A stretch of 64,000 bases of DNA from Bacteroidaceae bacterium. Lineage in GTDB: Bacteria > Bacteroidota > Bacteroidia > Bacteroidales > Bacteroidaceae. Positions 33,839-43,879 of this stretch are shown here, piece by piece. The notes beneath the pieces are model-generated. The model saw only the letters and a program-made list of their open reading frames with translations, did no database searches and had not been told where the DNA came from. Within the stretch, counting starts at the first letter, position 1. Each line of letters begins with the position of its first letter. The position numbers and the translations under genes were made by a program. The stretch is from the NCBI GenBank assembly GCA_017464815.1, contig JAFTYI010000031.1, forward strand, positions 1 to 64,000, given 5' to 3'.

Positions 33839-34486
33839 TCAGATGTAGTACTCCATCATCTCTACCAACCCGGCACGCAGTGCAAACTTTGTAGCCTCGT
33901 AGATATTGTTCACCTCCAGTTTGCGGAAGATGTTCTTCTTGTGGGTGATGATGGTATGGATGCTCGACACGCGGATGGCGGCAATTTCCTTCACCGTCTT
34001 TCCGCGGGCGATAAGGCGCAACACCTCCAGCTCTGTGGCCGTGAGGTCGGTCGGCACATCCCGTCGGTACGGATTGGAGGCCAACATGTTGGCAATCTGG
34101 TGGCAGAGGTAGCGTTCGCCACGTAGCGAGCACCGCAGTGCCGCCACAATCTCATCGCCCGCACACTCCTTGAGCAGGACACCGATGTTTCGTTCCATCA
34201 CGACCTGACGAATGAAGCTCTCGCTCAGTTCGTGCGAGAAGAGCAGCCACCGGCTCCTTGGGTAACGACGGGCAATGACCAGCACATCCTCCACCCCGTT
34301 GAGGTCGAAGAGTGTATAGTCGAGCACCACTACGGGAGCACTGCCGATCTCCCTACTCAGTTCTGCCAGCAGTTCGCGCTTGTTGCTTGCCCGACTGACA
34401 GAGGCCCCGACCGTAAGGTGTGAGACATAGTGCTCCACCCCCGCACGGGTTATGTCCTGATTGTCGGCTAAGATAAATGATTCCAT
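33839..34486 (-). CDS. LuxR/NarL-type response regulator
   Basis: 215 residues from MESFILADNQDITRAG. The receiver domain has the acidic N-terminal Asp pair and VVVLDYTLFDLNGVEDVL with the likely phosphorylated Asp; the C-terminal HTH reads LTATELEVLRLIARGKTVKE and later VSSIHTIITHKKNIFRKL. No histidine kinase is adjacent. It lies 15 nt after cysK on the same strand, so it may be cotranscribed with it. Confidence 0.88.
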   Translation of the reverse strand: MESFILADNQDITRAGVEHYVSHLTVGASVSRASNKRELLAELSREIGSAPVVVLDYTLFDLNGVEDVLVIARRYPRSRWLLFSHELSESFIRQVVMERNIGVLLKECAGDEIVAALRCSLRGERYLCHQIANMLASNPYRRDVPTDLTATELEVLRLIARGKTVKEIAAIRVSSIHTIITHKKNIFRKLEVNNIYEATKFALRAGLVEMMEYYI

Positions 34487-34501
34487 CTGCTGCAACGTAA
34501 A

Positions 34502-35449
34502 TTACACGGGATACTCTTCAAAGGCATAGAGCACCGTGGAGAGATACCGTTCACCCGTGTCGGGCAACAGGGCCACAATGGTCTTTCCTGCATTCTCCTC
34601 CAGTTTGGCCAATTGCAGGGCGGCATGGAATGCAGCTCCCGAAGAGATGCCCACTAACAAGCCCTCGCTACGTGCCAGAAGGCGCGAAGCGCGGATGGCA
34701 TCGTCGTCTTTGACAGGGATGATGGCATCTGCCGCACCGGGGTGAAAATTCTTGGGCACGAAGCCTGCACCGATGCCCTGTATCTTGTGCGGACCGGGAT
34801 TGCCCCCGCTCAGTACGGGCGAATTTTCAGGTTCTACGGCCACTGCCTTGATGGCAGGATTGTGGCTCTTCAGCCCTTCAGCCGTACCGCTCAGCGTACC
34901 TCCTGTGCCTACTCCTGCTACAAAGATGTCCACCTTCCCGTCAGTGTCGCGCCATATCTCCTCGGCCGTGGTGCGGACGTGTACGGCAGGGTTTGCCGGG
35001 TTTTCAAACTGCTGCAGGATGATGCTTCCCGGGGTCTCCTCCTTCAGCTCGTTGGCCCGTCGGATGGCTCCCTTCATTCCTTCGCTTCCCGGGGTCAGCA
35101 CAAGGGTTGCACCAAGTGCTTTCAACAGGTTTTGGCGCTCGATGCTCATCGTCTCGGGCATGGTCAGGACAAGGCGATAGCCTTTCACAGAGGCGACCCA
35201 TGCCAATCCGATGCCGGTGTTGCCGCTTGTCGGCTCGATGATGACAGCACCGGGTTTCAGCAACCCCTTGGCTTCGGCACTCTCTATCATGGCCAGCGCG
35301 ATGCGGTCTTTCACACTGCCGCCCGGATTGAAATATTCGATTTTAACTACGAGGCGTGCTTTCAGCCCTTCAGCTTTCTCAATGTTCGTAACCTCCAAGA
35401 GAGGCGTGTTCCCGATGAGGGAAGTCAGATTTTGATGAATCTTTGCCAT
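34502..35449 (-). CDS. cysK: cysteine synthase A (O-acetylserine sulfhydrylase)
   Basis: 315 residues from [20 protein letters not shown]; the start matches the promoter at 35477-35507. PLP-binding Lys47 lies in [22 protein letters not shown] and [19 protein letters not shown] are the substrate and phosphate loops. It makes cysteine from O-acetylserine and sulfide. It is divergent from the second, variant synthase that opens the encapsulin operon, so this is the housekeeping copy by sequence. Confidence 0.95.
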
Positions 35450-35476
35450 AATTCCATTCACGATTAAAATTTTTTG

Positions 35477-35507
35477 CAAAGGTACGCCCCTTTCGTGGGA
35501 CGGACAA
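35477..35507 (-). promoter_or_regulatory. cysK promoter
   Basis: Minus strand: -33 TTG (35505-35507), 20-bp spacer, -7 TACCTTTG (35477-35484). Confidence 0.8.
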
Positions 35508-35718: not shown

Positions 35719-35749
35719 TTGTACACCGTGGCGGCTTGCACTAATTTTG
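35719..35749 (+). promoter_or_regulatory. promoter of the sulfur-carrier/encapsulin operon
   Basis: -33 TTG (35719-35721), 20-bp spacer, -7 TAATTTTG (35742-35749), 37 bp before the ATG at 35787. No terminator is seen until 41952, so all eight genes are probably one transcript. Confidence 0.8.
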
Positions 35750-35786
35750 CACCATGAAAGCAAAATAAATGAAATTTAGTTGGCAT

Positions 35787-36725
35787 ATGGAAAAAATAGC
35801 ACATGATTTGACGGATTTGATAGGGCGTACTCCCCTATTGGAACTTTCGCGAATAGGAAAGGACCTCGGATTAAAGGCACGGCTTATAGCCAAATTGGAA
35901 GCATTCAACCCCTTGCGCAGTGTGAAGGATAGGGTGGGATATGCGCTGATAACGTCTGCTATTGAGCAGGGAAAGATTGACGAAAAGACGACGATTATAG
36001 AACCGACAAGCGGCAATACGGGTATTGGCCTTGCTTTTGCTTGTGCGATATATGGCCATCGGCTGATTCTTACCATGCCCGACTCCATGAGTATCGAACG
36101 TCGCAGCTTGCTTCAAGCCTTGGGAAGCGAAATCGTATTGACTCCTGCCCACGAAGGTATGGTGGGGGCCATCCGGCGTGCCGAGGAACTGGCTGAAGAG
36201 ATCGGCAATGCCTATATCCCCCAACAGTTTAAGAATCCGGCCAATGCAAATATCCATCGTACCACTACCGCCATTGAGATTTGGAATGACACTGACGGGC
36301 AGGTCGATGTCTTTGTGAGCGGTATCGGCACGGGTGGTACAATCACCGGAGTAGGCGAAAGTCTGAAGAAACTTAATCCGAAAGTTAAGGTTGTGGCTGT
36401 AGAACCGGCTGACTCTCCCGTATTGAGTGGGGGCAAATCGGGACCGCACAAGATACAGGGCATCGGTGCAGGATTTGTTCCTAAAGTATTGAATACGGAT
36501 GTTTACGATGAAATTGTCCGCGTGAAGACGGAAGAGGCTGTCCAAGCAGGGCGATTGTTAGCCCTGAAGGAAGGAGTGTTGGCGGGAATTTCAAGTGGAG
36601 CAGCTCTGCATGCTGCCATTGAATTGGCCCGTCGGCCGGAGAATGCGGACAAGACGATTGTCGTGCTTCTTCCCGATACAGGCGAACGGTATCTTTCGAC
36701 TTTATTGTATAATCAAAAATTATGA
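35787..36725 (+). CDS. cysteine synthase-like PLP enzyme (CysM role proposed)
   Basis: 312 residues from [20 protein letters not shown]; an ATG six codons earlier is possible. The fold is that of O-acetylserine sulfhydrylase: Lys47 in [18 protein letters not shown], and [19 protein letters not shown]. The loop before the PLP lysine reads N-P-L-R-S where the CysK copy 340 bp away has N-P-G-G-S. In mycobacteria a related enzyme (CysM) takes sulfur from a thiocarboxylated carrier rather than free sulfide; here a carrier gene starts 3 nt later, so that use is proposed, not shown. Confidence 0.85.
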
Positions 36726-36728
36726 GAC

Positions 36729-36947
36729 ATGGCTAAAATTACAGTGAATGGTGAAGTGCAGGAGGTACAACTCCCCCTGACAGTTGCGGAGTTACTCCAG
36801 CAAAGTGACGTGCAGCAACCGGACATGGTTTCTGTGCAGTTGAATGAAGAGTTCTTGGAGCGGAATGAATTTCCGACACAACAGTTACAAGAGGGTGACG
36901 AAGTGGAATTTCTTTACTTTATGGGTGGAGGACAGGTGTATGTATGA
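36729..36947 (+). CDS. ubiquitin-like (ThiS/MoaD/CysO type) sulfur carrier with capped C-terminus
   Basis: A 72-residue beta-grasp protein beginning MAKITVNGEVQEVQLPLTVA. Sulfur carriers of this family must end in Gly-Gly to be adenylated and thiocarboxylated. This one reads F-M-G66-G67-G68 and then four more residues, Gln-Val-Tyr-Val, so it has to be trimmed first; a JAMM protease is encoded in the same operon. The last codons overlap the start of the E1-like gene by 8 nt. The neighbourhood (cysteine synthase, protease) argues for a CysO-like role rather than thiamine or molybdopterin synthesis, whose genes are absent. Confidence 0.88.
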   Translation: MAKITVNGEVQEVQLPLTVAELLQQSDVQQPDMVSVQLNEEFLERNEFPTQQLQEGDEVEFLYFMGGGQVYV

Positions 36948-37752
36948 TTTCACAGAGGAAGAACTGAAACGTTATAGCCGGCACATTTTGCTGCAGGATG
37001 TGGGCGTGGAAGGACAAGAAAAAATCAAGCAGGGTAAAGTCCTGGTTGTCGGGGCAGGAGGACTTGGTGCTCCTGTTGCTCTCTATCTGGCAGCAGCCGG
37101 AGTGGGAACAATCGGTATCGTGGATGGGGATGTGGTAGATATCAGTAACCTGCAGCGTCAGATTATCCACTTTACTCCCGATACAGACCGGCCCAAAGTG
37201 GATTCGGCCCGCGAAAAGATAAAGCTGATCAATCCGAATGTGAAAGTAAACACATACAAGCAGTTCTTGAGTGCCGACAATGCCCTTGACATCATTAAAG
37301 AGTATGATTTCGTAGTCGATGGGACGGATAATTTCCCGGTGAAGTTCCTCATAAATGATGCTTGTGTCATGGCCGGAAAGCCTTTTTCGCATGGAGGCAT
37401 CCTCCGCTTTGAGGGGCAGACATTCACACATCTTCCGGGTACTGCTTGTTACCGTTGCTTGTTCAATTCGCCACCTCCAGCAGGTGCTGTCCCCACCTGT
37501 TCGCAAGCCGGAGTGTTGGGGGCCATTGCCGGAATGCTGGGAACCATCCAGGCTGCTGAAACATTGAAGTATCTGACGGGCGTTGGCGAATTGCTGACCG
37601 ACCGTTTGCTTACGTTCAATGCCAAGACAATGGAGTTCCGTAAGATAAAGACTCGCCGACATGACCATTGTCCGTTGTGCGGGACACATCCCACGGTGAA
37701 AGAACTGGTTGATTATGAACAACCAACGTGTGAACTGAAGAAACATAAATGA
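36940..37752 (+). CDS. E1-like carrier-adenylating enzyme (ThiF/MoeB/HesA family)
   Basis: 270 residues from MYDFTEEELKRYSRHILLQD. The ATP-binding G-A-G-G-L-G is at 38-43, the conserved Asp and R-Q-I-I-H follow, Cys187 in PTCSQAG is the likely catalytic Cys, and two C-x-x-C pairs (170/173 and 244/247) bind structural zinc. It would adenylate the C-terminal glycine of the carrier encoded just before. No rhodanese domain is fused, unlike mycobacterial MoeZ, so sulfur must come from another protein; DsrE-, TusA- and desulfurase-like genes follow. The next gene overlaps by 4 nt. Confidence 0.92.
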   Translation: MYDFTEEELKRYSRHILLQDVGVEGQEKIKQGKVLVVGAGGLGAPVALYLAAAGVGTIGIVDGDVVDISNLQRQIIHFTPDTDRPKVDSAREKIKLINPNVKVNTYKQFLSADNALDIIKEYDFVVDGTDNFPVKFLINDACVMAGKPFSHGGILRFEGQTFTHLPGTACYRCLFNSPPPAGAVPTCSQAGVLGAIAGMLGTIQAAETLKYLTGVGELLTDRLLTFNAKTMEFRKIKTRRHDHCPLCGTHPTVKELVDYEQPTCELKKHK

Positions 37753-38276
37753 ACAAGCGTATGGGAATCATTGAAAATGCACTGACAAAATCGGAAGCAA
37801 AGAGTGTCAAAAAACTCTCCATTATTGCCTTTAGCGGCGACTTTGACAAGTTGACGGCTGTCTTTACTCTTGCCACAGGTGCAGCTGCTGTGGGTTATGA
37901 GGTCAATATCTTTTTCACCTTCTGGGGATTGGATGCAATCAAGCAGAAACGGGGAAGAGCTTTCGTAGGAGGTAATTGGCTGACAAAACTATTCGGATTC
38001 TTGATGGGAGGTGTAAAGGTTGCCCCCAACAGCCGTTTCAACTTCCTTGGAGCCGGTCCCCGCATCTTCCGCCATCTGATGCGCAAGAAAAACATTGCCA
38101 CATTGGAAGAACTGATGGAGGCAGCGAATGCTCTTGGGGTCAACCTGTATGCTTGTGAAATGGCAATGCTTGTCCTTGGTTTGGAAAAGAAGGATTTCAT
38201 TCACGAGGTAAAGGATGTTTTGGGAGTCGCCACTTTCCTTCGTATCAGTGAAGGGGGAGAAACATTATTCATTTAA
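37749..38276 (+). CDS. DsrE-family (DsrE2/DrsE_2-like) sulfur-relay protein
   Basis: A 175-residue protein of the DsrE/F/H-like superfamily. It contains a hydrophobic N-terminal strand-loop (IIAFSGDFDKLTAVFTLATG) and an amphipathic segment around 79-90; Cys136 in NLYACEMAM is the plausible persulfide carrier. Members pass sulfur between TusA-like and other proteins in sulfur oxidation and tRNA thiolation. Here it lies between the E1 and TusA genes, overlapping the former by 4 nt. Confidence 0.82.
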   Translation: MNKRMGIIENALTKSEAKSVKKLSIIAFSGDFDKLTAVFTLATGAAAVGYEVNIFFTFWGLDAIKQKRGRAFVGGNWLTKLFGFLMGGVKVAPNSRFNFLGAGPRIFRHLMRKKNIATLEELMEAANALGVNLYACEMAMLVLGLEKKDFIHEVKDVLGVATFLRISEGGETLFI

Positions 38277-38291
38277 AAAATCAGAAAACAG

Positions 38292-38513
38292 ATGACACAT
38301 ACATTGGATATAACTCAGGAACATTGTCCCATGACATTTGTACGTACCAAACTGAAATTGGCCCAAATAGAAAAGGGCGACATCTTGGAAGTGCTTCTCA
38401 GTGAGGGGGAACCTTTGGAAAATGTGCCCCGAAGTGCAGAAGAGCAGGGCTTCAAGGTGATTGCAGTAGAGCATGTGGAAGGACCTGTGCATCGGGTCAT
38501 CATAGAAAAATAG
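38292..38513 (+). CDS. TusA-like sulfur-transfer protein
   Basis: A 73-residue TusA-family protein. The sulfur-carrying Cys12 is kept, but the family motif C-P-x-P reads C-P-M-T here, followed by FVRTKLKLAQI. TusA proteins accept persulfide sulfur from cysteine desulfurases. Encoded 15 nt after the DsrE-like gene and 9 nt before the JAMM protease, it is well placed as the link between the desulfurase and the carrier. Confidence 0.85.
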   Translation: MTHTLDITQEHCPMTFVRTKLKLAQIEKGDILEVLLSEGEPLENVPRSAEEQGFKVIAVEHVEGPVHRVIIEK

Positions 38514-38522
38514 GTACAGGTT

Positions 38523-38936
38523 ATGAAAATAAAGAGAGAGATTGTGGAACAAATAGTGGCACAGGCCCTTCGGGAACTTCCGAATGAGTCGTGCGGTTAT
38601 CTGTTCGGTAAGAAGAATGCTGTATCGGCAAACTATCCCATGACTAATGCCGATCACAGTCCTGAACATTTTTCGTTCGTTCCGCAAGAGCAATTTGCAG
38701 CCATCAAAGAGGCGCGCAAACAGCACCTGGAAGTGGTAGGCAGCTGGCACAGCCACCCGTCTTCTCCTTCCCGGCCTTCGGAAGAGGACATTCGTTTGGC
38801 GTATGATCCGAACATCATTTATTTTATCCTTTCGCTGGAAGCAAAGGAACCTGTACTCAATGCGTTCCGTATCGACAACGGTCATGTGGAAAAATTGGCA
38901 TTGGAAATAATGGACCAGGAAGAATCAGATTTATAA
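38523..38936 (+). CDS. JAMM/MPN+ metalloprotease (Mec+-like)
   Basis: 137 residues with the full JAMM zinc motif: Glu22 (NESCGYLFG), H76-S-H78, Ser86 and Asp89 in WHSHPSSPSRPSEED. In mycobacteria Mec+ releases cysteine from CysO-cysteine; in thioquinolobactin and Wolinella methionine systems JAMM enzymes trim extra residues from a carrier to expose Gly-Gly. The capped carrier in this operon makes the second activity, or both, likely. Confidence 0.92.
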   Translation: MKIKREIVEQIVAQALRELPNESCGYLFGKKNAVSANYPMTNADHSPEHFSFVPQEQFAAIKEARKQHLEVVGSWHSHPSSPSRPSEEDIRLAYDPNIIYFILSLEAKEPVLNAFRIDNGHVEKLALEIMDQEESDL

Positions 38937-38956
38937 CGACTAAAAACAAAATTATT

Positions 38957-40396
38957 ATGGCAGAAAACAATTTACAGCGCAGTGTTACAACTGCAACCGC
39001 CCGCAAGCTGGCGAATACGACCAAGACGGCACCTCAAATGGGGTCCATTACTCCGCGTCTTCTTTTGAAGCTTCTCCCTTGGGTGCAGGTGGAGAGCGGT
39101 ACTTATCGGGTAAACCGCACCAAGGTGGAATTAAAGAAAGCCGAACGTGTCTCTGTAGAATATCTTGAAGGGGTTCCCAGTTTTCAGGCGAAAAGCTTAC
39201 GAGGCATCCCCGTATTTTCACACATTGAAGAAGAGGTTGTCCGCCGTATAGCCAAACGTTTCATCACAGAGGAGGTGGACTTGGGCAATTACCTGATTCG
39301 TGAGGGGCAGGACAAGCAGAAGTTCTTCATTGTAGCCAGCGGACAGGCAGAAGTCATCAGTAAAGGTATTCATGGCGAAGAGTTGCGTATCGCTCTCTTG
39401 AGTGAAGGTGAATATTTTGGTGAAGCAGACCTGTTGAGCGACAGCCTTTCCGGGGTGACGGTGAGAAGTGTCACACCCAGTGTCTTCTTCACATTGCAAA
39501 GCAGTGAACTGGAAAACATCATAAAGGAAGTTCCTGATTTCAGGGAGCGTTTCCAGAAGGCCGTGGACGAGCATCTCCGCTTGAAGGCTACCGTAAACGT
39601 CCATGGAGAAAAGCATATCGATCTGGTGAGCGGACACGAGGAGGACAATATAATCCCTGAAACGTACATCGACTATGAAGAGCACCCGGCCGAATACTCA
39701 TTGAATACACTTCAGACGGTAGTGCGGGTACATACCCGTGTGAGTGACCTTTACAACAACCCGCTCAACCAGCTGGAGCAGCAATTGCGCCTCAGCATTG
39801 AGAGTATCAAGGAACGTCAGGAATGGGAACTCATCAACAACAAAAGGTTTGGTTTGCTGGCAAGTGTGGATCCCGGCTATCGCATTTCCACCCGTTATGG
39901 CGCACCGACACCGGATGATTTGGACGAACTCCTTTCACTGGTATGGAAGAATCCGGCTTTCTTTATCGCCCACCCGCGTGCAATAGCAGCTTTTGAGCGT
40001 GAATGCACATGGAGGGGTGTACCCCCTGCAACCACGGACATTTTTGGAACAAAGGTGATTTTGTGGCGTGGGGTACCCATTATCCCAAGTGACAAGGTTG
40101 AAATCAAAGGGCAATATCTGACAAACCGCGGAGTGGGAACAACCGACATCATTTTAGTACGCACGGGAGAAAAGGAGCAAGGTGTTGTAGGATTGCACCA
40201 GACAGGGATACCCGGAGAGATTGCCCCCTCGCTTTCAGCCAGGCTCATGGGATTGGACAAGTATGGAGTGGCCTCTTATTTGTTGACCAAGTATTTCAGC
40301 CTTTCAGCTTTGACGGACGATGCCATTGCCGTATTGGAAAATGTGGAAGTGGGTTACTATCACGACTATCAACATCGCAACAAAGTAGAAAAATAA
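38957..40396 (+). CDS. family 2B-type encapsulin shell protein
   Basis: A 479-residue protein. Residues about 83-205 form a Crp-like cyclic-nucleotide-binding domain (GQAEVISKG and YFGEADLL), set inside an HK97-type encapsulin shell fold: the N-terminal arm (1-80) and the C-terminal 270 residues, including TRYGAPTPDDLDELLSLVWK, IFGTKVILWRGVPIIPSDKV and GEIAPSLSARLMGLDKYGVA. Such inserts mark family 2B encapsulins. The phosphate cassette lacks the usual Arg after FGE-x-L-L, so nucleotide binding is doubtful. The next gene, 10 nt on, is the cargo enzyme. Confidence 0.9.
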   Translation: MAENNLQRSVTTATARKLANTTKTAPQMGSITPRLLLKLLPWVQVESGTYRVNRTKVELKKAERVSVEYLEGVPSFQAKSLRGIPVFSHIEEEVVRRIAKRFITEEVDLGNYLIREGQDKQKFFIVASGQAEVISKGIHGEELRIALLSEGEYFGEADLLSDSLSGVTVRSVTPSVFFTLQSSELENIIKEVPDFRERFQKAVDEHLRLKATVNVHGEKHIDLVSGHEEDNIIPETYIDYEEHPAEYSLNTLQTVVRVHTRVSDLYNNPLNQLEQQLRLSIESIKERQEWELINNKRFGLLASVDPGYRISTRYGAPTPDDLDELLSLVWKNPAFFIAHPRAIAAFERECTWRGVPPATTDIFGTKVILWRGVPIIPSDKVEIKGQYLTNRGVGTTDIILVRTGEKEQGVVGLHQTGIPGEIAPSLSARLMGLDKYGVASYLLTKYFSLSALTDDAIAVLENVEVGYYHDYQHRNKVEK

Positions 40397-40406
40397 AAAA
40401 AGGATT

Positions 40407-41921
40407 ATGATTCCAACTGAATTTGATCATACGTTTGTCGGGACAGAATGGGGTGACATCGGCCGGTTGCGGTCGATAGCCTCCGGATTCTGTTCCGAGG
40501 AGCTTGCACATGAGACGCCTCCATGTGTCTTGGAGAAGACGGATGGGCAGCTTAATCTTGAGGAATTGGAACAGGGTTTTCTGCGGATGTTGAACGGTGA
40601 TGACGGCTTTCCTGCCGTCACGCCCTCGCAACAATGGATTGGAGAGAGTGGTTTTGGCATAGGCATCCCCGAAACGGAATCGCTCAGACAGTTGCACTAT
40701 ACCGATTCGGATACTCTTCCAATAGAAGAAGCCCGAAAGGATTTTCCGATTTTGCAGCAGAAGGTGAACGGTCATGAACTCGTATGGTTTGACAACGGAG
40801 CCACCACGCAAAAGCCCCGTCAGGTGATAGAGGCCATCTCCGACTACTATTCCCGATACAACAGCAACATCCATCGGGGCGCACATACGCTTGCAGCAAA
40901 GGCCACCGACGCTTACGAAGAAGCCCGTGAAAAGGTGCGCAGCTTCATCAATGCCTCTTCCACAGAAGAAATCGTATTTGTCAGAGGGACAACCGAAGCC
41001 ATCAACCTGGTAGCCCAGACGTTCGGGCGGAAGTTTCTGGGGGTAGGCGATGAAGTGATAGTTTCTACGCTGGACCACCATGCAAACATTGTGCCTTGGC
41101 AACAAGTCTGCAAGGAACGTGGGGCGGAACTGAAAGTCATCCCCATTGACAAGGACGGCAATCTGATTCTTGAAGACTATGAACGGCTCATTTCACCGCG
41201 CACCAGATTCGTATCGGTGGGGCATGTGAACAATACGTTTGGGACCATCAACGATGTGAAACGGATTATCGAGGTGGCACATCGTCTGAATGTGCCCGTA
41301 CTGATTGACGGTGCACAGAGTATCGCCCACACCAAGGTCGATGTGCAAGCTTTGGATGCCGATTTCTTTGTCTTTTCAGGGCATAAGATTTATGCTCCTA
41401 CGGGCATAGGGGTGCTGTATGGCAAGCAACGTCTGCTCGAAATTCTTCCCCCTTGGCAGGGAGGAGGCAATATGATAAAGGACGTCACGATCGAAGAAAC
41501 CCAGTTCAATGCCCCTCCCGCCCGTTTTGAGGCCGGCACACCCAATGTGGCGGATGCCATCGGATTGGGGGCGGCTCTTGACTATGTCAGCCGGATAGGC
41601 ATTTCCGTCATCGAACGGCATGAGCACGAACTGACCGAGTATGCCCGCCAACAATTGTCGCAGATTAAAGGACTGACACTTATCGGCAATCCCAAGCAAC
41701 GTGTCAGTGTCGTCTCTTTCGAACTGGATGGCATTGCTACTCCCGAAGTCGGCAGGCTGCTCGACAAAGAGGGGATAGCCGTCCGTGCCGGTCACCATTG
41801 TGCCCAACCCGCCCTGCGGGCCTTGGGCTACGAAATGAGTGTGCGTCCCTCCTTCGCCTTTTATAACACCAAAGAAGAAATCGACCGTTTGGTCAGTGCC
41901 GTCAGGAAGATAGTAGGCTGA
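40407..41921 (+). CDS. SufS-type cysteine desulfurase, encapsulin cargo
   Basis: 504 residues, about 105 more than SufS. The catalytic domain starts near residue 106 (IEEARKDFPIL): PLP Lys327 in SGHKIYAPTGIG and persulfide Cys465 in RAGHHCAQPALRALG. The first ~105 residues are low in recognisable structure, rich in Gly, Glu and Pro, with motifs such as GEWGDI-like and IGESGFGIGIPE; family 2 encapsulin desulfurases use such an extension for loading into the shell. The enzyme removes sulfur from cysteine as a persulfide. Last gene of the operon; a terminator follows. Confidence 0.92.
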   Translation: MIPTEFDHTFVGTEWGDIGRLRSIASGFCSEELAHETPPCVLEKTDGQLNLEELEQGFLRMLNGDDGFPAVTPSQQWIGESGFGIGIPETESLRQLHYTDSDTLPIEEARKDFPILQQKVNGHELVWFDNGATTQKPRQVIEAISDYYSRYNSNIHRGAHTLAAKATDAYEEAREKVRSFINASSTEEIVFVRGTTEAINLVAQTFGRKFLGVGDEVIVSTLDHHANIVPWQQVCKERGAELKVIPIDKDGNLILEDYERLISPRTRFVSVGHVNNTFGTINDVKRIIEVAHRLNVPVLIDGAQSIAHTKVDVQALDADFFVFSGHKIYAPTGIGVLYGKQRLLEILPPWQGGGNMIKDVTIEETQFNAPPARFEAGTPNVADAIGLGAALDYVSRIGISVIERHEHELTEYARQQLSQIKGLTLIGNPKQRVSVVSFELDGIATPEVGRLLDKEGIAVRAGHHCAQPALRALGYEMSVRPSFAFYNTKEEIDRLVSAVRKIVG

Positions 41922-41951
41922 GATATTCTGACGGACAAAAAAGAGAGACAG

Positions 41952-42003
41952 ACTCCGCTCGCGAACCTATTATATATAGGGACGGGAGCGGAGTTTATGT
42001 TTT
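41952..42003 (+). terminator. terminator of the encapsulin operon
   Basis: Arms ACTCCGCTC (41952-41960) and GAGCGGAGT (41986-41994), with an inner CCTAT/ATAGG pairing, then TTATGTTTT. Confidence 0.8.
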
Positions 42004-42095: not shown

Positions 42096-42252
42096 CCTTG
42101 AAAAAGAAAGAGTAAACCCATTTCATGACTAAGTTAAAAACAAGTCAACGATAACTAAAAATAAAGTTTAACTCAGTCAACCCAAGCTACAAATAAGATA
42201 GAAAGTAGTCAACGGAAATCGTTAACATACACCTTGAAAAAGAAAGAGTAAA
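42096..42252 (+). repeat. pair of identical 21-bp direct repeats
   Basis: CCTTGAAAAAGAAAGAGTAA plus one A occurs at 42096-42116 and again at 42232-42252, 136 bp apart. Between them AGTCAAC occurs three times. No gene is visible in 41995-42676; the gap holds this pair, the palindrome array and promoter-like elements. Confidence 0.75.
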
Positions 42253-42263
42253 GCTGGCAAGCC

Positions 42264-42351
42264 AGTACTTCTCAAGAAATACTCGAGTACTTCCTAAGAA
42301 GTACTGCAATACTTATTAAGCAATACTGTAGTATTTCCTAAGAAGTACTGG
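42264..42351. repeat. four tandem 22-bp palindromic units
   Basis: Units begin at 42264, 42286, 42308 and 42330, of the form AGTACTTCnnAAGAAGTACT with small changes. The flanks add an outer dyad (AAGCC ... GGCTT). A -7-like TACCTTTG on the minus strand (42406-42413) would transcribe leftward through the array, though its -33 is poor. Confidence 0.85.
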
Positions 42352-42635: not shown

Positions 42636-42709
42636 CAGCCGGAAAAGGTGAGAAATCATAGAAATAGAATATAATAATGTATTTCAAAAAGGATATACGA
42701 GAAAAACAG

Positions 42710-43879
42710 ATGAAGAAACAGACACGAGCCATCCATACGGCATTCCAAAGCGTGGATGCATACCACGCCCTCGCCATGCCTGTCTATCACACGGCTGCCT
42801 ATGAGTTTGATACGGCGAATGCCATGGCCGACGCCTTTTGCGGACGTACGGAAATGCCCGATTACAGCCGGGTGACAAACCCTACGGTGACTTTTCTTGA
42901 GAATAAGGTGAAAGCATTGACCGGAGCAGTCCATGTCATCGCCATGAACTCGGGAATGGCTGCCATCGCCAATACATTGCTGGCTGTGGCAGGAACAGGG
43001 CGGAACATCGTCGCCTCGCGCCACATGTTCGGTAACACCTATGCACTGATTGCGGGAACCCTGCTCCGTTTCGGAGTGAAACCGAAGCTGTGCGACCTCA
43101 CCGACCTTGCAGCCGTCGGGCGGGCCATAGATGAGAATACTTGTTGCATCTATTTGGAAATCATCACCAACCCCCAACAGGAGGTGGCAGACTTGCGTGC
43201 CCTCTCGCAAATGGCAAAAGTCCGAGGCATCCCCCTGATAGCAGATACGACGATGATTCCTTTCACCGAATTCAGTGCGAAGGAGCTGGGAGTTGACATT
43301 GAGGTAGTGTCAAGCACCAAGTATCTCTCGGGCGGAGGCACTTCCATTGGCGGGCTGGTCATCGACTATGGCACTTGTCCGGGCTTCGGCAAACGGATGA
43401 AGACGGAAATGCTGCTCAATATGGGAGCCTATATGACGCCCCACGCAGCCTATATGCAGACGCTGGGGCTGGAGACACTGGATGCCCGCTACCGTGTGCA
43501 GTCGGCCAATGCACTTGAGTTGGCCAAACGCCTCCGTACATTGCCTGCCATCAGGCGGGTGACATACATCGGCTTGGAAGACAATCCCTTCCACCAATTG
43601 GCAAAAGAGCAGTTCGGCCCTACGGGTGGTGCTATGATGACCATCGACTTGGAGAGCCGCGAGGAGTGTTTCCGCTTCATCAACAAACTGGGGCTTATAC
43701 GCCGTGCAACCAACCTGTTTGACAACAGGTCGCTGGCCATTCATCCCGCCAGCACCATTTTCGGAAACTTCACCGACCGGCAACGCAAGCAGATGGATGT
43801 GTCTGACACCACCATCCGCCTCTCCATCGGGTTGGAGCATGTGGATGACTTGTTTGAGGACATAAAGAACAGCCTGTGA
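42710..43879 (+). CDS. Cys/Met-metabolism PLP enzyme (trans-sulfuration family)
   Basis: 389 residues from MKKQTRAIHTAFQSVDAYHA. The family's PLP Lys lies in VVSSTKYLSGGGTSIGG and the substrate Arg region near RLSIGLEHVDD. It could be an O-acetylhomoserine sulfhydrylase, a cystathionine gamma-synthase or a methionine gamma-lyase; sequence by eye does not decide. A more typical MetY is at 53585. Placed after the sulfur operon and 99 nt before the PatB-like gene on the same strand. Confidence 0.8.
   Translation: MKKQTRAIHTAFQSVDAYHALAMPVYHTAAYEFDTANAMADAFCGRTEMPDYSRVTNPTVTFLENKVKALTGAVHVIAMNSGMAAIANTLLAVAGTGRNIVASRHMFGNTYALIAGTLLRFGVKPKLCDLTDLAAVGRAIDENTCCIYLEIITNPQQEVADLRALSQMAKVRGIPLIADTTMIPFTEFSAKELGVDIEVVSSTKYLSGGGTSIGGLVIDYGTCPGFGKRMKTEMLLNMGAYMTPHAAYMQTLGLETLDARYRVQSANALELAKRLRTLPAIRRVTYIGLEDNPFHQLAKEQFGPTGGAMMTIDLESREECFRFINKLGLIRRATNLFDNRSLAIHPASTIFGNFTDRQRKQMDVSDTTIRLSIGLEHVDDLFEDIKNSL

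Follow-up and report, generated by a model that had tools for sequence, protein, structure and literature searches.

The window analysed here, 64,000 nucleotides (nt) of contig 6 (JAFTYI010000031.1) from a 2.63 Mb Bacteroidaceae assembly with a completeness of 78.7%, carries an operon of eight plus-strand genes (35769-41921) in which a Family 2B encapsulin shell and a SufS-type cysteine desulfurase lie together with the parts of a ubiquitin-like sulfur-carrier pathway: a CysK-type cysteine synthase, a ThiS-like carrier, an E1-like enzyme, a DsrE2-like protein, a TusA-like protein, and a JAMM protease. The linkage between the shell and desulfurase and the carrier genes is well supported. As to its purpose, we consider it an even call that these genes bank sulfur and provide a dedicated route for taking it out again, where we infer both the storage and the direction of flow. 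The fuller picture, in which the nanocompartment would be a rechargeable sulfur battery from which TusA and DsrE2 withdraw sulfur onto the capped carrier for conversion to cysteine, is offered more tentatively, at somewhat short of even.

Among 201 genomes of the window's family, which were searched for shell, JAMM, and DsrE2, a full-length shell is present in 29 (three more matches are short) and JAMM in 31, that is, in all 29 shell genomes and in 2 of the 172 shell-less ones (G028 and G039). Fisher's test for shell versus JAMM gives 5.5e-33, a value that overstates the case because the genomes are related. In 24 of the 29, no more than 5 kb separates JAMM from the shell; the distance is 12 kb in G199, and in G023, G049, G171, and G066 the two are on different contigs, which in G066 may reflect a contig break. 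In these five genomes the trio of thiS, E1, and jamm lies elsewhere, whereas dsrE still adjoins the shell; such retention would suit DsrE2 as a bridge. Stand-alone DsrE2 (77-89% identity) is confined to the 29 shell genomes, while 58 others have matches of ~36-43% in open reading frames (ORFs) mostly of 800-900 amino acids, the one in G039 being a fragment. Because the two gene sets are nearly always found together in relatives, they suggest one sulfur-handling system, which is what an earlier note on this DNA had proposed. G039 (92% complete) has the synthase, carrier, E1, a truncated DsrE2, TusA, and JAMM, and neither an intact shell nor a desulfurase was found in its 6 kb stretch; a short shell-like match there is not counted as a shell remnant since it falls in the cNMP-like part. 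In G028 (56% complete), the trio adjoins a PAPS reductase, a CysN-like GTPase, and a LuxR-type regulator.

Gene order was compared over 80 shell loci, the best 80 of 446 matches, a set that is for this reason biased toward close relatives and partly overlaps the family set. The order synthase-dsrE-tusA-shell-desulfurase is almost fixed, with the trio shifting around it. Scored within 7 kb of the shell, the desulfurase is present in 78 loci, tusA in 77, dsrE in 76, a CysK-type synthase in 75, thiS and E1 in 62 each, jamm in 60, and metY in 54. The desulfurase gene follows the shell gene in 78 of the 80, and dsrE and tusA are adjacent in 76, with the shell next in 61 or after jamm in 15. The trio is placed after the desulfurase in 32 loci, inside the operon as in the window in 15, before the operon in 11, and on the opposite strand in 4; none of it is nearby in 8, and 10 are not callable. 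Where at least 6 kb is available on both sides (41 loci), 33 hold the whole trio and 8 none of it. Its position must have changed at least 14 times on the shell tree, a count that takes "none nearby" as a state and rests on a tree in which 27 of 74 inner branches are weakly supported. For the 18 loci with no trio nearby, 16 genomes were tested (not those of L102 and L115), and 13 of them, four also members of the family set, have JAMM elsewhere. The gene order that the earlier note wanted searched for thus recurs and is not confined to one genome, and chance or a single-genome oddity is rejected by the family co-occurrence, the 80-locus order, and the unlinked JAMMs. Acetyltransferase-like ORFs stand between jamm and the shell in L090, L091, L094, and L134 and ahead of the shell in L060, whose shell is the nearest relative of the window's and whose contig begins within that ORF; they are CysE-like by eye, and the one scanned by profile is Hexapep.

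In the window, the eight genes are separated by 3, -8, -4, 15, 9, 20, and 10 nt, and each was assigned to its family by Pfam and NCBIfam profiles. The unit is flanked by a promoter motif, TTG-N20-TAATTTTG, at 35719..35749 (+), with nine matches in the window against 0.56 expected, and by a terminator-like hairpin at 41945..42003 (+; z -7.40, with 0 of 200 shuffles equally stable). We take the former, by a TTG-N20-TAnnTTTG consensus, to be a Bacteroides-type promoter. A generic sigma-70/terminator scan picked out neither the motif nor the hairpin, and its own finds were at chance level. One promoter, eight packed genes, and one terminator had been described from the sequence, and this layout, including order and strand, holds. 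The eight ORFs stand as well, with a correction to the first start: because 35769 is only 20 nt past the promoter motif, translation of the synthase may start from the ATG at 35787 instead.

The shell gene (38957..40396, +) encodes an SrpI-like HK97 protein with an inserted cNMP-binding-like domain (PF19307, 377 bits; PF00027, 52 bits; NF041163, 564 bits vs a cut-off of 400), and its solved relatives are PDB 9bje and 6x8m. By these matches the protein is a Family 2B encapsulin; such a protein would assemble into an icosahedral shell. Within the insert (about 39170-39560), the FGE glutamate E156 is invariant in 27 aligned shells. No arginine is seen by eye in these shells at the usual phosphate-binding position, as we presume it from the canonical site, so classical cNMP binding is doubtful.

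The predicted cargo is the SufS-type desulfurase (40407..41921, +; PF00266, TIGR01979, Aminotran_5/SufS). The SufS-family model begins at residue 108, leaving an N-terminal extension of about 105 residues, and the description of such an enzyme next to a cNMP-insert encapsulin is thereby borne out. Its RxGHHCxQP motif is found in 73 of 74 rows; here and below, rows pool loci from two collections, some species are double-counted, and rows cut by contig ends are scored as misses. An operon-type desulfurase (74-81% identity, ORF of at least 508 amino acids) occurs in each of the 28 other shell genomes, all of which also have a second SufS of 53-56% identity (fragmented or cut in G197 and G171). 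In 28 shell-less genomes, hand-chosen from the 172, only the 53-56% type is present at full length. The window's assembly contains the operon copy only, the second probably missing through incompleteness. Since relatives hold both kinds, a merely misplaced housekeeping SufS is rejected, and by sequence comparison the operon desulfurase is a dedicated enzyme distinct from the housekeeping one.

The remaining six genes would form the relay. The synthase (35769..36725, +; PF00291) exceeds the cut-off of the cysK model (TIGR01139, 436.6 bits) and falls under that of cysM. Its PHKIQGIG loop presumably marks a CysK-type enzyme rather than an O-phosphoserine-type CysM, and PHK(I/L)QGIG is found in 98 of 105 rows. 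It is followed by the carrier (36729..36947, +; PF02597, TIGR01683), which ends in FMGGG plus a QVYV cap. All 73 sequences outside a group of loci that we call f18 have 1 to 40 residues after FMGGG, 69 of them 1 to 6, whereas four f18 sequences terminate in an uncapped FAGGG; the best solved relative, PDB 2k5p, has the same FLYFMGGG tail with further residues behind. The E1 (36940..37752, +) is a MoeB/ThiF-like protein of 270 amino acids consisting of the ThiF domain alone (PF00899 only), without a rhodanese domain; it scores 280.5 bits against MoeB (NF004281, cut-off 266), and its PTCSQAGVLG motif is found in 73 of 85 rows, four of the misses being f18 ThiF-like rows. The stand-alone DsrE2-like persulfide carrier (37749..38276, +; PF13686, DrsE_2) has the cysteine motif CEMAM (105 of 109 rows), and the TusA-like protein (38292..38513, +; PF01206) has CPMT (CPMT or CPIT in 101 of 111 rows, with 7 of the 10 misses due to a start chosen inside the motif). 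The Mec+-like JAMM metalloprotease (38523..38936, +; PF14464), a relative of PDB 2kks, has HSH-x7-SxxD, of the HxH-x7-SxxD type, as do 77 of 78 rows. The catalytic parts of the operon proteins thus look intact. A sulfur handover by TusA and DsrE, as suggested in the earlier note, is a plausible bridge, given that the two adjoin the shell in shell loci and lie within the carrier operon in two shell-less relatives.

If the operon is a store, it might work as follows. The N-terminal extension would direct the desulfurase into the shell, where, under cysteine surplus, the enzyme would strip sulfur from cysteine and deposit it in sulfane or elemental form. During sulfur shortage, the TusA-like protein and DsrE2 would fetch sulfur from the shell and pass it, as persulfide, to the E1. 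JAMM would first trim the carrier cap (FMGGG|QVYV), after which the E1 would adenylate the exposed glycine and the sulfur would be placed as a thiocarboxylate. The CysK-type synthase could then couple the carrier thiocarboxylate with the aminoacrylate from O-acetylserine, with JAMM freeing the cysteine; in many relatives, MetY may route the same sulfur to homocysteine. Here we infer shell assembly, cargo loading, and storage, as well as the direction and order of the transfers. Sharing an operon is reasonable for a desulfurase and a cysteine synthase if a sulfur store lies between them or if the sulfur goes to another acceptor. If true, the battery reading would explain both the use of encapsulin-stored sulfur and the origin of the sulfur on a thiocarboxylate carrier. 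An operon with both sides, widespread in Bacteroidales and present in records titled as cultured strains (L088 and L134), makes both questions testable. The citing of desulfurase encapsulins as sulfur stores, in the excerpt of PMC12407261, counts for storage.

Where the sulfur comes from bears on this reading. Two phylum-level relatives without a full shell (G388 and G274) have a run of thiS, metY, E1, dsrE, tusA, and jamm, which a synthase precedes in G388, and the run lies downstream of genes for a CysN-like GTPase, siroheme synthase, and sulfite reductase (families scanned in G388 only). Because these shell-less relatives have the relay genes behind sulfite-reductase genes, the shell and desulfurase appear to be another way of supplying the relay with sulfur. 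We read the relay as a module whose front end may be sulfite reduction in some bacteria and an encapsulated desulfurase in shell carriers. Pfam places no sulfate or sulfite assimilation genes among the operon's eight. A close CysH (PAPS reductase) occurs in 3 of the 29 shell genomes and was not found in the other 26, some of which are incomplete, including the window's own. Sulfate assimilation is hence unlikely as the general sulfur source for most shell genomes, CysH being the sole such gene searched and some genomes being incomplete.

Several observations weigh against a store with the carrier as its outlet. The carrier does not require a shell for its sulfur supply, since G028, G388, and G274 pair it with sulfate or sulfite assimilation. 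A tie of JAMM to the shell across the whole phylum is rejected, with JAMM matches in 127 of 395 genomes and distant JAMMs in many shell-less ones; within the family, the co-occurrence counts take related genomes as independent. JAMM was not found in 3 of the 16 genomes tested for an unlinked copy, all metagenome-assembled and including that of L060. On the cargo side, the 2A cargo model NF041166 gives the window desulfurase 741.3 bits, below its cut-off of 800, and covers residues 97-502. The second Family 2A cargo motif (PYYFL type, AASPYYFLDG) was not found in the window's extension, and we therefore speak of cargo loading as predicted. YYFL is present in the f18 and 2A desulfurase extensions compared. 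The first motif, LARLANEFFS, has by eye a loosely similar counterpart in the window, GRLRSIASGFC.

An alternative that we regard as unlikely dispenses with the store: the encapsulated desulfurase would charge TusA/DsrE2 and the carrier directly, the acceptor being O-acetylhomoserine via MetY (or another product), so that cysteine sulfur reaches homocysteine without free sulfide and the shell limits leakage. Thiocarboxylate-dependent methionine synthesis is known from Wolinella, and this counts in its favor, as does the metY relative near the shell in the 54 loci given above, which follows the desulfurase in 12 (median gap 8 nt) and precedes the synthase in 26. metY even sits inside the carrier operon in the shell-bearing L067, between thiS and E1, and in two shell-less relatives. 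However, the near-constant partner is the CysK-type synthase (75 of 80), not MetY, and the window's own MetY/MetB-like sulfhydrylase (42677..43879, +; PF01053), a possible second client of the carrier, lies beyond the hairpin.

The two halves might also share one promoter yet work in opposite directions, without passing sulfur to each other, the shell and desulfurase removing surplus cysteine while the carrier route takes sulfide, sulfite, or thiosulfate to cysteine. The carrier genes that accompany sulfate or sulfite assimilation genes in G028 and two shell-less phylum relatives agree with this. The lack of a close CysH in 26 of 29 shell genomes, some incomplete, argues against it, as does dsrE adjoining the shell in the five genomes whose trio lies apart, and we assign it a low probability. 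It is very improbable that the carrier is a ubiquitin-like modifier with which the E1 tags the shell or cargo and which JAMM removes: the cap is variable and removable, and JAMM resembles an archaeal desampylase (NF041370, 70.8 bits, under the cut-off of 130), but the remaining operon proteins belong to sulfur-metabolism families and none of the eight matches an E2-like family. That unrelated sulfur genes are merely carried along together by physical linkage is scarcely credible, for despite a patchy spread (the shell, and shell with JAMM, occur in 1 of 13 listed genomes of the window's genus, the window's own) the trio is retained when unlinked and shifts around the core.

The f18 loci (L140-L143), probably from green sulfur bacteria, provide a second link of an encapsulated desulfurase to a ThiS-type carrier: the shell region, which includes synthase, desulfurase, and metY genes, continues into a gene for an uncapped ThiS, and L140 and L143 also have ORFs of ThiG/H/F size plus an acetyltransferase-like one. 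A thiamine reading drawn from these four loci is rejected for the window, where the carrier is capped and JAMM is present. Some f18 genomes (G361, G397, G341, G417, and G505) have two full-length Family 2B-like shell genes on separate contigs.

Upstream of the operon, a second, divergent CysK-type synthase (34502..35458, -; profile match, 63% identity to the operon synthase over 308 residues) has its own promoter motif at 35477-35507 (-). Similar LuxR-type regulators adjoin a CysK-type gene or the carrier trio in the window (33839-34495, -), L140 (13188-13841, -), and L150 (8216-8857, +), those of the window and L150 being profile-scanned and that of L140 identified by eye; this is a candidate sulfur regulator. 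Downstream of the operon lie a perfect 21-nt repeat at 42096 and 42232 and about four units of tandem palindrome-like 22 nt repeats (42263-42350).

Each part of the operon has known counterparts. Capped carriers trimmed by JAMM proteases are known from the Wolinella homocysteine pathway and from thioquinolobactin QbsE/QbsD; these share with the window residues past the glycines that must come off and a JAMM protease next door and, unlike it, are not known to have a shell or an encapsulated desulfurase. The mycobacterial CysO-CysM-MoeZ-Mec+ pathway, with which the earlier note compared the operon, likewise has a thiocarboxylate carrier, an E1, a JAMM-type protease, and a cysteine synthase, whereas, as excerpted, its MoeZ has a rhodanese domain and its CysM works on O-phosphoserine, in contrast to the short E1 with TusA/DsrE2, the CysK-type synthase, and the capped carrier found here (PMC3227635). 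The comparison therefore holds for the JAMM motif, carrier, E1, and synthase as parts and fails for the rhodanese-free E1, the CysK-type loop, and the cap, which is like that of 2k5p. The same excerpt calls the sulfur source of CysO unknown (PMC3227635).

A 2006 survey, as excerpted, describes thiS-E1-JAB-SirA operons accompanied by sulfur assimilation as well as thiS-E1-JAB operons that include cysteine synthase (PMC1779556). Its operons 4c and 4e share the ThiS-like carrier, a rhodanese-free E1 (4e), JAB, SirA/TusA, and cysteine or homocysteine enzymes; 4e has sulfate/sulfite assimilation alongside, where the window has the shell, encapsulated desulfurase, and DsrE2 instead (PMC1779556). Family 2 encapsulins with cysteine desulfurase cargo have been described and, in the excerpts of those papers, resemble the window in the SrpI-like shell (here 2B, with a cNMP-like insert), the adjoining SufS-type desulfurase with an N-terminal extension, and an acetyltransferase-like gene, here in some relatives only (PMC8049743, PMC8346489). 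They differ in the extension, about 105 residues without PYYFL here versus 225 in Synechococcus elongatus, and in the accessories, the most enriched in the excerpted 2021 Family 2 survey being serine acetyltransferases and rhodaneses, as against a full capped-carrier pathway with DsrE2 and TusA here. The joining of shell, desulfurase, and DsrE2 with a carrier operon was not found in the open-licence literature searched, supplements excluded. The earlier statement that no described system joins all these parts thus stands for this joining and gives way for the carrier-E1-JAB-SirA/synthase combination, already in PMC1779556. The shell, the cargo type, and carrier-E1-JAB-TusA operons are each known from the excerpted sources (PMC8346489, PMC8049743, PMC1779556), and what we did not find in print, and take to be new, is their union, together with DsrE2, in one operon.

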